Of a DNA stretch of 64,000 nucleotides, positions 54,470 to 61,849 are shown one piece after another. Below the pieces are notes generated by a model. It ran no database searches. It was not told where the DNA came from and saw only the letters and a list, made by a program, of their open reading frames with translations. The DNA is taken from positions 1 to 64,000 of the forward strand of contig JALSHH010000047.1 in assembly GCA_026982335.1 (NCBI GenBank), given 5' to 3'. This DNA is from Phycisphaerales bacterium. GTDB lineage: Bacteria > Planctomycetota > Phycisphaerae > Phycisphaerales > UBA1924. Made by a program: the position numbers and the translations under genes. Numbering within the stretch: the stretch's first letter is position 1; each line of letters starts with the position of its first letter.

Positions 54470-57400
54470 CTAACTACATCCCAACGAGTTGCCGCAGTTG
54501 AGGCACTTGTAGCAAGTACCAGAGCGCACAGTGATGGTGCCACAAACATCGCAAGGCGGCGCATCGCCCGATGATTCAAGCGCCATCGAGAGCGTTGCGC
54601 TGGCTGCTCGCTGTGTGTGGGTCTCGGTCTTCTGAACTGTCGTATTAATTCCTGTCTTGATCGCAGTTTCGGAGATATGAGTCTCGGTCATAACCTCGTC
54701 CTTGATCTCGATCACCCGGCCAGAAGTTTTGCCGTTCGGATTGGTAATTCGTCGGGTGATGACTGTAGGCTCGGTGATTTCTGCTCGATCGGCCAAAGCT
54801 TCGGGTCTCTTGGGCGCATTGGCCTCACGATAGCCTTCAATGAACTCCATCCCAAGCCAGCGGAAAATATAATCGACAAGACTCTTGGCGAATGGGATAT
54901 CCCTGTTGGTGGTCATACCTGAGGGCTCGAAGCGTTGATGGGTGAACTTTTTAACCAAGCTTTCGAGAGGCACGCCGTATTGCAAAGCAACCGAGGTCGA
55001 GGTGCCCAACGAATCCATCAATCCCCCGATCGTTGAACCTTCTTTGGCCATAGTAATAAAGAGTTCGCCAGGCATTCCGTCGTCATAGACACCGCAAGTG
55101 AGGTACCCCTCGTGACCGGCAACATTAAACTTGTGGGTAATCGACCGACGAGTGTCGGCCAAACGACGACGCATCGGACGATGAACGACCTCGACTTCCT
55201 TTTTGATGACGATCCGCACATTCTCGTTGCCCACCGCATCAGCAAGTTCGACGACATCGTCGCCGATCTCATCAAGGGCTTCGGCAAGTTCAAGTTCGTC
55301 CTTTGCTTCTTCAATATCAAGCTCATTGTCCGTATCACTCTTCGCATTCAATGGTTGACTGAGCTTGCACCCATCACGATAGAGCGCATTGGCTTTGAGC
55401 CCGAGTTCCCAACTCTGTCGGTATGCATCTTTGATATCATCAACCGTTGCATCGTGAGGCAGGTTGATCGTCTTAGAAATCGCCCCAGACAAGAATGGTT
55501 GGGCAGCTGCCATCATACGAATATGTCCATCAGCCGAGATTAACCGTGTACCGATATTGCCACAGGTCGAGGCACAATCGAACACCGGAAGATGCTCATC
55601 TTTGAGATGTGGTGCCCCCTCAATTGTCTGCGTACCACAGATGATTTTGTTGAGTTCTGCAATCTGAGCGCTCGTCAGTCCTAAGAACTTAAGTGCGTTG
55701 AAATTGGCGTCTGCCCTGGCAATTTCTGGGCTGATGCCGATCCTCGTAAGGGTTTCATCACTCAATGCCCACGCACCAAAGGCAAATCCAATTTCAAACA
55801 CTCCCGGGAGTTGATTGGTGATTTTTTGAAGGTCTTCATCGCTCATCCCCCGTTCACTGAGCCAGTCCGCCAAAGACAATCCGACGCTGTCAGATATTTC
55901 CTTGGGCATTGGAACATGCAGGTTCAGCGTACCCAAAATGTATTGAATCATCGCTCTTCGTTGATCTTCGTCATACCCCAACGCTTTGAGGGCAGGATCA
56001 ATCGAAGCGTTGGCAATCTTAAAATATCCACCACCAGCGAGCTTCTTGAACTTGACAAGCGCAAAGTCGGGCTCAACACCGGTGGTATCGCAGTCCATAA
56101 GCAATCCAATGGTTCCCGTTGGCGCGATGACCGTAGTCTGGGCGTTGCGATACCCAAACTCCTCCCCCAAATGCAGCGCCTCGTCCCAAGCAACGGTCGC
56201 ATGGTGGAGCAAATCCATCGCATTGCCCAAAGGCACACCGTGATCACGAATGAGTTCATGATTGATCGGGACAGGTGGAATGCGAAGATCTTCGTACTCG
56301 CCGCTGTCTCGCGCAATCCCCATCGCTGCCCGGCGATGGTTGCGAATCACGCGCAACATGTTTTCTCGTTCTGGCTCGTACCCGGGAAATGGGCCCAGCT
56401 CTCCTGCCATCATCGCACTCATGCGATAACTTCGCCCGGTCATGATCGCCGTCAGGCACCCGCAAATCGCGATGCCTTGCTCAGAGTCATACGGAATCCC
56501 CGCCTGCATGAGCATCGCACCAAGATTGGCATAACCCAACCCAATGGTACGATAGTTGTAGCTCAATTCTGCGATTTCACGCGATGGGAAAGCTGCCATG
56601 AGCACACTAATTTCGAGTACAATCGTCCACAGATCGACACCATGCTCGAAAGCCTCAATGTCAAATTCGCGTGTCTCTGAATCATAGAATTTAAGTACAT
56701 TGAGCGATGCAAGATTACACGCGGTATTGTCAAGGAACATGTATTCGCTGCACGGATTCGAGGCGTTGATCCGTCCTGCATTGGGACAAGTGTGCCAAGC
56801 GTTGATGGTGCTGTCGTATTGCACACCCGGATCGGCACATCGCCACGCGGCGTAGGCGACATCGTTCCAAAGTTGATTGGCATCGTAAGTCTTGGCGACC
56901 TCGCCGGTGGTGCGAAAAGTTGTCTCCCATGGCGCCCCGGCATCAACGGCATCGAAGAAGGTATCAGGAATCCGTACTGAATTATTCGAGTTCTGCCCCG
57001 CGACGGTAGAATAGGCTTCGCCGTTGAAATCGTAGTCGAGGGTGAGTCCGAGTCGCCGGGCCGTTTCACCAACGGTTTCGGTATCGAATTCGGAAGTTTT
57101 TTCATCTGCGATGACTTTCATGCCTTCGACGAGTGCAGCAACCTTAATTTCTTCCCGAACTTTCCAATTGATAAACTCCTCGATATCGGGGTGGTCCATA
57201 TCAAGACAGACCATCTTGGCTGCCCGGCGGGTGGTACCGCCGCTCTTGATCGCCCCGGCTGCGCGATCGCCGATCTTGAGCCAAGACATCAATCCCGACG
57301 AATTCCCCCCACCTGAGAGCAGTTCATGCTCGGCCCGCAGATTCGAAAAGTTCGTGCCAGTACCCGAACCATATTTGAATAGCCTCGCTTCGCGCTGCCA

Positions 57401-58099
57401 GAGGTCCATAATCCCGCCTTCGTTAACCAGCGAGTCATCGACCGATTGAATAAAACACGCATGAGGCTGGGGATGCGAGTACGCATCGTCAGCCAGTTCG
57501 GGCTTGCCCAATTCTGGATCGACAATCCAGTGTCCTTGGGCGGGGCCTGAGATTCCATACGCCCAGTTCAAGCCCGTGTTGAACCACTGAGGCGAGTTGG
57601 GCGCGCACATCTGATGCACCAACATATACACCAACTCGTCATAAAACGCCTGCGCATCTTCGGGGGTATCAAAGTACCCATGCGTCTCGCCCCAGTGCTT
57701 CCAGCAACCGGCCAGGCGATGAATCACCTGGCGGGCGGAGCGTTCTGGGCCAACGGGAACCTGATCTGATGAGCCACCCGTGTCGGCAAGCGGTCTTTCT
57801 GAACCGCCCGAAGCCCCCGCTCCCTCACGGTCGCGGCTCGTTGGGTCTTGCTCATTCGACGACCAGTTTGGAGCTGGCATCCCATTTGGCCCGCCATCGG
57901 CAGGCACCCCCGCCTTGCGGAAGTATTTGGACACCATGATATCTGTGGCCAGCTGCGAGAACCCAACCGGAACCTCGGCATCGGGCATCTCAAAGACAAC
58001 CGAACCATCCGGGTTCGTGATTCGACTCGATCGCGTGGTCCACTCAGTGGATGCGAACGGGTCAGTACCTTCCGTGGTGAATCGACGAGTGATTTTCAT
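54470..58099 (-). CDS. nrdJ: Adenosylcobalamin-dependent (class II) ribonucleotide reductase
   Basis: 1209 residues. It reduces ribonucleotides with a B12-derived thiyl radical, independent of oxygen. Family blocks: 'NSPQWFNTGLNWAYG', 'GSGTGTNFSNLRAE', 'NPCSEYMFLDNTACNLASLN', 'GPFPGYEPERENML', 'APTGTIGLLMDCDTTGVEPDFAL', 'ASTCGNIGTRLISADGHIRMMAAAQPFLSGAISKTINLP', a TSCPD-type domain ('GYLTCGVYDDGMPGELFITMAKEGS') and a C-terminal zinc ribbon ('CDVCGTITVRSGTCYKCLNC'). An unusual 45-50 residue linker at about 70-120 contains the repeat-derived 'TSRDREGAG'. The track start (58129) is a TTG; ATG 58099 fits better. It lies 82 bp after dcd. Confidence 0.95.
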   Translation of the reverse strand: MKITRRFTTEGTDPFASTEWTTRSSRITNPDGSVVFEMPDAEVPVGFSQLATDIMVSKYFRKAGVPADGGPNGMPAPNWSSNEQDPTSRDREGAGASGGSERPLADTGGSSDQVPVGPERSARQVIHRLAGCWKHWGETHGYFDTPEDAQAFYDELVYMLVHQMCAPNSPQWFNTGLNWAYGISGPAQGHWIVDPELGKPELADDAYSHPQPHACFIQSVDDSLVNEGGIMDLWQREARLFKYGSGTGTNFSNLRAEHELLSGGGNSSGLMSWLKIGDRAAGAIKSGGTTRRAAKMVCLDMDHPDIEEFINWKVREEIKVAALVEGMKVIADEKTSEFDTETVGETARRLGLTLDYDFNGEAYSTVAGQNSNNSVRIPDTFFDAVDAGAPWETTFRTTGEVAKTYDANQLWNDVAYAAWRCADPGVQYDSTINAWHTCPNAGRINASNPCSEYMFLDNTACNLASLNVLKFYDSETREFDIEAFEHGVDLWTIVLEISVLMAAFPSREIAELSYNYRTIGLGYANLGAMLMQAGIPYDSEQGIAICGCLTAIMTGRSYRMSAMMAGELGPFPGYEPERENMLRVIRNHRRAAMGIARDSGEYEDLRIPPVPINHELIRDHGVPLGNAMDLLHHATVAWDEALHLGEEFGYRNAQTTVIAPTGTIGLLMDCDTTGVEPDFALVKFKKLAGGGYFKIANASIDPALKALGYDEDQRRAMIQYILGTLNLHVPMPKEISDSVGLSLADWLSERGMSDEDLQKITNQLPGVFEIGFAFGAWALSDETLTRIGISPEIARADANFNALKFLGLTSAQIAELNKIICGTQTIEGAPHLKDEHLPVFDCASTCGNIGTRLISADGHIRMMAAAQPFLSGAISKTINLPHDATVDDIKDAYRQSWELGLKANALYRDGCKLSQPLNAKSDTDNELDIEEAKDELELAEALDEIGDDVVELADAVGNENVRIVIKKEVEVVHRPMRRRLADTRRSITHKFNVAGHEGYLTCGVYDDGMPGELFITMAKEGSTIGGLMDSLGTSTSVALQYGVPLESLVKKFTHQRFEPSGMTTNRDIPFAKSLVDYIFRWLGMEFIEGYREANAPKRPEALADRAEITEPTVITRRITNPNGKTSGRVIEIKDEVMTETHISETAIKTGINTTVQKTETHTQRAASATLSMALESSGDAPPCDVCGTITVRSGTCYKCLNCGNSLGCS
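57817..57843. repeat. Dispersed 27-bp repeat, copy 2 (inside nrdJ)
   Basis: The same sequence as 51934-51960 with one mismatch, read in frame as part of 'TSRDREGAG' in NrdJ. Confidence 0.85.
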
Positions 58100-58180
58100 G
58101 CGAAATAAGGCTTTCTCTTGGGAAATCAAATGAAGGGAGAATCACGCTCAACAATCTGCGTGTACAGAAAAATGTGCGGA

Positions 58181-58753
58181 CTAATCAACCCTCGGCAGGG
58201 TCAAGCCACCCTGATCTTGATACTTCCCCGCCTTATCCGCATAGCTCTGTGCACACACCTGATCGCCTTTCAAGAAGACGAACTGGGCCACCCCCTCATT
58301 CGCATACACCTTGGCGGGCAACGGCGTGGTGTTGCTGATTTCGAGGGTCACTTTGCCTCGCCATTCGGGTTCGAGAGGGGTGACATTAACGATCAACCCG
58401 CAGCGGGCATAGGTGGACTTGCCGACGCAGAGGACGAGGATGTCGCGGGGGATGTCGAACCATTCGATGGTTTCGCACAGGGCAAAGGAGTTGGGCGGGA
58501 TGATGACATGATCCATCCCGGTTTTGGTGGTATCGACCGTCACCATCAGGTCATCGGTGAAGTTTTTGGGATCGACGACAGCAATGCCTCCCGTTGGTGG
58601 GGTCGGGGTAAAGATCTTGAAGACGGTTCCAACACGGACATCGTATCCATAGGAGGAGACGCCATAGGAGATGGTTCCATCGCGTTTGATGGCTCGCTCG
58701 AATGGTTTGATGTCAACGAGTTGTTCGATTTGAGTATCACAAAGAACTGGCAC
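58181..58753 (-). CDS. dcd: dCTP deaminase
   Basis: 190 residues, trimeric dUTPase fold. '[16 protein letters not shown]', '[75 protein letters not shown]' covers the conserved core with the catalytic Glu in 'VTLEISN' and the Ser/Arg of 'GKSTYAR'. It makes dUTP from dCTP on the way to dTTP. The start is GTG 58753 with GGAG 6 nt upstream. nrdJ follows on the same strand, so both deoxynucleotide enzymes are probably co-transcribed. A hairpin lies about 80-115 nt upstream. Confidence 0.95.
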
Positions 58754-59779: not shown

Positions 59780-61849
59780 GTGAAGACCCCTTCAAAGCCA
59801 GGCTCAACTCTATCCTTCTCGAATCCACGCACCCAACGCCCGATGGTGGCGCTGGCGATTGGTGTGATTCTTCTTTCTTTGATCCCTGTTGGCGGGTGTG
59901 GTGAGAACTGGAGGCGATGGCGCGATCGAAAGAAGCCAATCCCCAAACCCAAGATCAGTGCCCCGCTCGTCACACGCGATATTCCCTCAGCACTTCGTGG
60001 AACCATCGGCGCCGAGGCCCAGATCACCGGCGTCGAGCAAACACTCGTCTCGGGAATCGGATTCGTCGTTGGGCTCAACGGCACAGGTGGACTCACCATC
60101 CCCGAACAATACGCAGCCCACCTCGAACGGATGATGGGACTCAATGGCGTCACCATCGCCAATGATTCAAATTCCGCGATCGCGCGCAAAAGCCCACGCG
60201 AGCTTCTGCGTGATCGCAATACTGCAGCGGTGATTGTCCAAGCCGCGATCCCGGCAGGGGCCCGTCAAGGCGAAACCTTCGATGTCTATGTCCGCGCGAT
60301 CAATGCGACGAGCCTTGAGGGTGGTCAGCTTTGGACCACGGAGATGCGAATTGGACCCCCGAGCTCGTATGGCGATCCGCAAGCACGGATTCTCGCCAAA
60401 GCCAAGGGGCCCATCTTCTTGAATCCATTTGCCGAGCCAGGTGGACAGTTCGATGGAATCACCCGCGATGTCGGACGGATTCTCGATGGCGGAACCATCA
60501 CCTTCCCAACCAAAATCGAAATTATCCTCGACAACCCTTCGCACCAACGGGCAAGACAGATCGTCAGCGCAATCAACAGCGCCTTCCCCGCAGCACCATC
60601 TGATCGCGAACCCACCGCTCGGGGTAAGGATGAATCGTTGATTCTCGTGCAAATTCCTCAACGGTACATTGATCGACGCAGCGAGTTTATCGACTTGCTC
60701 GCTCATGTGACAATCGACCAGTCTTATCCGGAAATTTACGCCCGCCGATATGCCCAAACACTCGAATCCGAGCCTTACCTTGCAGGCGATATGTCGATGT
60801 GTCTCGAAGCACTCGGCGAACGGGCAATCCCATTCCTGAGCGACCTTTATACACATCCCGAATCAGCACCGAGACTCGCAGCCTTGCGCGCCGGAGCAGC
60901 ACTTGGCGATTCGCGCGTGGTCAAGTATCTGCGTGAAATCGCGCTGGATGTCAATTCGAAGTTTCGGACCGACGCGATAAGCCTGATGAGCACAATCGAC
61001 GAGTCACTCCTCGTTGATACAACCCTGCGCGAGCTGCTCATCGCCCCTGAGCTGGCCGTCCGCATCGAAGCCTATGAGAGCCTGATGGATCGTGCCCTGC
61101 GGGTACGCAAAGCACGAATCGCACGGATGTTCCAATCCAATACGCAGGGAATCACCACCTCGGCAACGCAGATTGATATTCTCTCGCGCGTGTGGGTGCC
61201 GATGGATCCGCTTCGCGGGGTTGGACGGACGCTCGTTGAAGGCAAGTTCTTCCTTGACATTGTGCCCTATGGCGACCCTTTGGTTTATGTGACGCAGCAG
61301 AAGGAGCCTCGGATTGTGCTCTTTGGCGAGAATCTGTCATTGACTAAACCTTTGCTGGCCTCGGCATGGTCGGATCGACTGATGCTTGTCGCCGACGATG
61401 TGAACGCACCGGTCCGGATGTATTATCGTGATGACATCACCCGCACGACCTTGACGATCAATGAAATACCTGAGCAACTCCCTGAACTGATCAAACTCTT
61501 CGCTCATACCCCAACACCTGAAGATCCTCGCCCTGGGCTTGGAATGTCGTACTCGCAGGTGGTTGGTGCGTTGTATCAGATTTATGACGATCGAGGGGTC
61601 GCTGCTGCCTTTGCAACTGAGGAGGATCGGCTTTTGGCGGATCTGCTCTCGTCGGTAACCAAGGAAGAAGTCACGATGCGTCCCGAATCAGGCAATGCCG
61701 ATTCGGTGATGGTGCCTGTAGATGACCCGTCGGCTCCAGTGGTTGGTGAGAATGAAGCCCTCCGCCGCGTACGCCGAACGCTTTTGGTTCCGGTGAACCC
61801 GGTGGTGAACGAGCCTCAAGAACCAACCACGGGCCAACGCAGAGAATAA
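59780..61849 (+). CDS. FlgI-like (P-ring fold) lipoprotein with HEAT-like region
   Basis: 689 residues. Signal 'MVALAIGVILLSLIPVGGC' (Met at about 22) ends in lipobox VGGC, so it is likely an outer-membrane lipoprotein. Residues about 60-280 resemble flagellar P-ring protein FlgI: 'VSGIGFVVGLNGTGG', 'RNTAAVIVQAAIPAGARQGETFDVYVRAINATSLEGGQLWTTEM'. Next come HEAT-like helices ('LAALRAGAALGDSRVVKYLREIAL') and a C-terminal domain without known family. No flagellar gene is near. I chose GTG 59780 (GAGG at 8 nt); ATG 59843 at the signal and the track TTG 59726 are alternatives. Confidence 0.7.
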   Translation: MKTPSKPGSTLSFSNPRTQRPMVALAIGVILLSLIPVGGCGENWRRWRDRKKPIPKPKISAPLVTRDIPSALRGTIGAEAQITGVEQTLVSGIGFVVGLNGTGGLTIPEQYAAHLERMMGLNGVTIANDSNSAIARKSPRELLRDRNTAAVIVQAAIPAGARQGETFDVYVRAINATSLEGGQLWTTEMRIGPPSSYGDPQARILAKAKGPIFLNPFAEPGGQFDGITRDVGRILDGGTITFPTKIEIILDNPSHQRARQIVSAINSAFPAAPSDREPTARGKDESLILVQIPQRYIDRRSEFIDLLAHVTIDQSYPEIYARRYAQTLESEPYLAGDMSMCLEALGERAIPFLSDLYTHPESAPRLAALRAGAALGDSRVVKYLREIALDVNSKFRTDAISLMSTIDESLLVDTTLRELLIAPELAVRIEAYESLMDRALRVRKARIARMFQSNTQGITTSATQIDILSRVWVPMDPLRGVGRTLVEGKFFLDIVPYGDPLVYVTQQKEPRIVLFGENLSLTKPLLASAWSDRLMLVADDVNAPVRMYYRDDITRTTLTINEIPEQLPELIKLFAHTPTPEDPRPGLGMSYSQVVGALYQIYDDRGVAAAFATEEDRLLADLLSSVTKEEVTMRPESGNADSVMVPVDDPSAPVVGENEALRRVRRTLLVPVNPVVNEPQEPTTGQRRE

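Follow-up and report, generated by a model that had tools for sequence, protein, structure and literature searches.

The flagellar P-ring is a 26-fold ring of FlgI, and FlgH is the lipoprotein that forms the L-ring on the outer-membrane side of the basal body; FlgI is usually taken as a marker of flagella. In Salmonella, FlgI consists of an outer ring (OR) domain (residues 1–11 and 160–230), an upper inner ring (IRU) domain (12–159) and a lower inner ring (IRL) domain (231–346), with Lys63 and Lys95 facing the rod; the OR fold is reported to resemble the secretin N3 domain and the OmpA-like C-terminal domain of MotY, which are peptidoglycan-binding or ring-building folds (PMC8298488).

Within the window (the whole stretch of DNA analysed, 64,000 nucleotides of contig JALSHH010000047.1 from the Phycisphaerales bacterium assembly GCA_026982335.1), one gene encodes a protein that, judged from its sequence, is a whole FlgI carrying a HEAT-repeat insertion at the OR/IRL boundary and a predicted lipid anchor. 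The gene is real; a GAGG motif lies 8 bases 5' of its GTG start at 59780, and its parts are as follows.

59780–61849, + strand: complete coding sequence of the FlgI-HEAT lipoprotein (open reading frame with GTG start, 689 aa; Pfam FlgI and HEAT_2)
59780–59899, + strand: lipoprotein signal peptide, sequence VALAIGVILLSLIPVGG followed by the lipobox Cys (codon 59897–59899)
59900–59986, + strand: linker from the lipid anchor to the folded part (low pLDDT, weak conservation)
59987–60724, + strand: FlgI part 1, IRU and OR domains up to the OR/IRL boundary (hhalign; Foldseek)
60725–61207, + strand: helical HEAT-repeat insertion (Pfam HEAT_2; AlphaFold2 helices; insert length)
61208–61621, + strand: FlgI part 2, the diverged rest of the IRL domain (hhalign; firm match 61298–61621)
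61622–61846, + strand: C-terminal tail, largely disordered in the model (pLDDT below 50 at residues 615–668, numbered from a start at 59843)

In place of the unlipidated, cleavable Sec signal that marks P-ring proteins, the signal region is a hydrophobic stretch ending in VGG-C, and the lipobox Cys recurs in 29 of the 30 aligned proteins of this architecture (hereafter long forms), in agreement with the lipobox recognized by the initial annotation. With this Cys and with Asp at position +2 in none of the 30, the long forms have the predicted features of outer-membrane lipoproteins, on the assumption that planctomycetes use the E. coli +2 rule.

The FlgI signatures that the initial annotation had seen in the N-terminal third reflect genuine homology, which is not limited to that third but spans the whole protein around the HEAT block. 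Pfam assigns FlgI to residues 80–315 (E 9.6e-29) and HEAT_2 to residues 332–401 (E 1.7e-6), the latter bearing out the suspected HEAT-like repeats. In profile-profile comparisons (hhalign), the N-terminal part aligns with positions 30–259 of canonical FlgI (E 1.8e-30) and the C-terminal part with positions 270–369, which reach the end of FlgI (E 2.5e-6), while the HEAT block alone, used as a control, gave no match to canonical FlgI. A novel C-terminal domain, also proposed initially, at first seemed to be backed by the absence of matches: the region had none in Pfam and nothing convincing among PDB sequences, and a Foldseek search of solved structures with the isolated domain model returned none. 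The hhalign result and its controls overturned that reading, as the match scores 48 against a best of 20.8 in 200 column shuffles and 15.2 for the reversed alignment, and is recovered separately by either half of the family (scores 46 and 43); the C-terminus is the rest of the third FlgI domain. Homology to PF02119 covers the OR and IRU domains as well as the IRL domain, the last diverged and split by HEAT.

Structure prediction, which the initial annotation had proposed together with profile comparison, was done with AlphaFold2 and yielded a model of good confidence (mean pLDDT 82.9, pTM 0.79). Its N-terminal part matches the Salmonella LP ring/P-ring (7cbl/7bgl; Foldseek E 3e-13), and the HEAT insertion is helical and matches alphaRep structures. 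Pairwise alignments place its entry point at about residue 228–232 of mature FlgI, the OR/IRL boundary. The insert is 161 residues long in the window protein and 123–147 in its relatives, mostly 124–125; FlgI is detected by Pfam in all 30 aligned members and HEAT_2 in 28. Unlike stand-alone or cytoplasmic HEAT scaffolds, the long forms carry these repeats inserted within an exported FlgI.

The long forms and FlgI (PF02119; Salmonella 7CLR, 7BGL) have in common the motifs GxGLVVGLxGTG and SLxGGxL, and both are exported; they differ at signature residues in addition to the lipobox and the HEAT insertion. Asp31 of the GTGD motif is conserved in 20 of 21 canonical FlgIs but in only 2 of 30 long forms, the other 28 having GTGS/G. 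Lys is found at position 95 in 12/21 canonical and 0/30 long forms, and Lys or Arg at position 63 in 14/21 and 7/30, respectively, a comparison that is only suggestive because the canonical planctomycete FlgIs themselves vary at both positions.

The initial annotation had also proposed a search for a separate canonical flgI, and one exists: a PF02119 profile search of the whole window genome, which is about 92% complete, returned two matches, namely the window protein and a canonical FlgI on contig C7 (362 aa, E 3.1e-57) with flgH just upstream. The window protein, with 689 codons nearly twice as long as this FlgI, as initially estimated, is consequently ruled out as the sole FlgI of its genome, strictly co-inherited with flgH and flgA. 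Against the NCBIfam FlgI models it scores 85.6 bits where the cut-off is 300; the canonical FlgI of the same genome also falls below (173.9), so this cut-off cannot separate the two types. Between flgH and the canonical flgI lies a 230-aa open reading frame with a PEP-CTERM-like end (VIPLPPAGFAGLGMLAGLGIYRRIRR; L001:2709–3401). FlgH resembles the long form in being a lipoprotein, as the lipobox of the latter indicates; we know of no sequence relationship between them, and the FlgH of the window genome is encoded separately, on another contig. The domains encoded around the window gene agree with the initial remark that flagellar neighbours are absent: a class II ribonucleotide reductase and a dCTP deaminase lie upstream (54470–58753, divergent), and an acyltransferase and a cytidylate kinase on the other side. 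No linkage to flgH, flgA or another flagellar gene was found in the window or in 20 relatives. Two genomes of the same family (L037, L038) likewise have the ribonucleotide reductase next to the long form.

Of 294 sampled Planctomycetota genomes, 43 encode the FlgI-HEAT architecture. A profile built from the C-terminal region alone, to which ordinary FlgI does not respond, recovers the same set, apart from one marginal extra match on the canonical FlgI of G286 (E 9.5e-4). By class and family labels taken from the kinship grouping of the sampled genomes, all 22 members sampled from the window's class have the long form, as do about 20 genomes from other lineages, including all 16 listed members of the family of Gimesia (f30). 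The f30 query shares 81% identity with a named protein from Gimesia; a search with a single Planctomycetia sequence found three named relatives, two of them from Gimesia. A maximum-likelihood tree was built from the FlgI regions of 30 long forms, of 21 canonical FlgIs from planctomycetes and of the Salmonella protein. In it, the long forms make up one clade apart from canonical FlgI (support 100/100), which splits into the window's class and the members from other lineages; this topology indicates a single ancient origin and mostly vertical descent. In a Gimesia-like genome (G069) there is a third protein with a FlgI domain (605 aa, L105:4062–5879), in which FlgI occupies residues 287–559 after a long N-terminal part and HEAT gave no match. 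We found no description of a FlgI-HEAT lipoprotein in the freely accessible papers covered, and a prior description is possible; the main text of the P. limnophila essential-gene paper names neither FlgI nor SMC.

Co-occurrence with flagellar genes, a further check proposed at the outset, separates the long form from the flagellum. FlgH accompanies it in 37 of the 43 genomes, and the other six (G220, G127, G257, G266 and G274, 97–99% complete, and G055, 84%) have the long form while canonical FlgI, FlgH and the rod/hook domain PF06429 are all absent; FlhA is absent too in G220, G127 and G055. The presence of the long form is therefore independent of the flagellum, and the co-occurrence with FlgH and rod proteins expected of a P-ring protein does not hold. 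In a survey of the class, FlgI was matched in 195 of 198 genomes, with only a weak, long-type match in about 59 and only a strong, canonical match in 5 (hand counts, with type assigned by score band alone). Strict flagellar co-inheritance is ruled out by the six genomes together with this survey, and the modified P-ring suggested by the initial annotation is contradicted by the same six genomes and by the canonical flgI that the window genome keeps beside flgH. Divergence of the long form from flagella is well supported. By homology it belongs to the FlgI superfamily, but it lacks the features that define a P-ring, namely a place in a flagellar cluster, co-occurrence with the rod and FlgH, and unlipidated export. 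Since this FlgI paralogue is near-universal in one planctomycete class regardless of the flagellum, the automatic annotation "flagellar P-ring protein" misleads predictions of motility.

Clustering of neighbouring open reading frames at 21 loci yielded one family present in 17, all others being found in three or fewer, and no conserved operon larger than the long form and this neighbour. The latter is an SMC chromosome-segregation ATPase with SMC_N and hinge domains; as there is a single such locus per genome, it is the main SMC. In 38 of the 43 genomes, the next gene downstream of the long form is smc, in the same orientation (coordinates compared by hand), with a gap of about 20–290 bp at the loci measured. 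In G220 the distance is about 3 kb, in the window genome smc follows 12 kb downstream (C47:73923, beyond the window), and in G111, G167 and G274 the two genes are unlinked; the last three genomes and the window genome count against the reading favoured below. The roughly 12 kb between the two genes in the window genome (C47:61850–73900) encode an acyltransferase, a cytidylate kinase, a TPR protein and an ABC transporter, among others. Because an exported protein cannot meet a cytoplasmic ATPase, the conserved gene order points to joint expression or a common process rather than to contact, and may reflect co-regulation only. In 20 sampled lineages that lack the long form, a quick look at loci that were not all oriented revealed no obvious equivalent in the 1.5 kb beside smc. 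Planctomycete cell biology is unusual and poorly understood, and the conserved smc adjacency offers a testable lead into it.

The reading that we favour, with roughly even chances of being right, is that the long form is an ancient non-flagellar paralogue of FlgI, an envelope lipoprotein that forms a ring or scaffold at the level of the peptidoglycan and is co-expressed with smc. The data establish homology to FlgI along the full length, the HEAT insertion, the lipobox, monophyly, occurrence without flagella and the smc adjacency; from there we infer localisation, oligomerisation, partner binding and the reason for smc co-expression along the following lines. An ancient paralogue of the P-ring gene flgI would have left the flagellum, with a product exported and, as the conserved lipobox suggests, lipidated; if sorting follows the E. 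coli rule, the lack of Asp at +2 would probably direct it to the inner face of the outer membrane. The FlgI core may oligomerise and sit at the peptidoglycan like the P-ring, a ring or arc there being the simplest guess because the core keeps all its domains; contact with peptidoglycan is plausible by analogy, given the likeness of the OR fold to peptidoglycan-binding folds. The HEAT block at the OR/IRL junction could project and offer a partner protein a place to dock. The product would thus act in the envelope as a scaffold or collar independent of a rod; in most lineages it would be expressed with smc from a two-gene unit and might serve a housekeeping role tied to growth or division. The long form is probably a flagellar part reused for another cell-envelope job, and so would illustrate the apparent recruitment of a ring protein from the flagellum to a different envelope function; the initial idea of an outer-membrane-anchored ring for another machine is backed, as regards the anchor, by the conserved lipobox.

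It is possible, and we entertain it tentatively, that no ring is formed: the FlgI fold would then act only as a periplasmic binding module, either as a monomer or as a small oligomer, HEAT would do the work as a protein-protein adaptor for envelope maintenance, and the smc adjacency would be an inherited order without function. HEAT, present in nearly the whole family, is the usual protein-binding repeat, and the analysis yielded no residue-level signs of ring contacts; however, a mere adaptor would not need all the FlgI domains that are kept, the diverged end of the IRL included, and the smc adjacency has outlived all other local gene order. A bolder reading, in which an outer-membrane-anchored, non-flagellar P-ring-like ring acts in the same process as SMC, so that envelope constriction or budding in planctomycetes is coordinated with the segregation of chromosomes, is doubtful.

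T-, H- and other disk proteins form accessory flagellar disks in Vibrio or Campylobacter, and in flagellated planctomycetes the long form might likewise be a second, outer-membrane-anchored disk around the P-ring. The P-ring fold common to both proteins in Foldseek and hhalign would suit such a disk, as would the frequent company of FlgH; its retention in the six genomes without rod/hook domain, FlgH and canonical FlgI, the many class genomes with only a long-type match, and a neighbour that is smc, with no flagellar genes, make it distinctly unlikely. That the long form substitutes for the P-ring on a rodless flagellar-type export apparatus in some planctomycetes is very improbable, since G220, G127 and G055 have it without FlhA and its gene does not lie near the export genes, even though G257, G266 and G274 combine it with FlhA, neighboured by FlhF-like, sigma or FliP/FliR/FlhB genes, and without FlgH or canonical FlgI. 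In these last three genomes, FlhA without detected rod/hook domain, FlgH and canonical FlgI represents a rodless export apparatus or a relic; at the loci concerned (L106, L107 and L108) it is found with an FlhF-like GTPase and a sigma factor, joined in G274 by FliP, FliR and FlhB.
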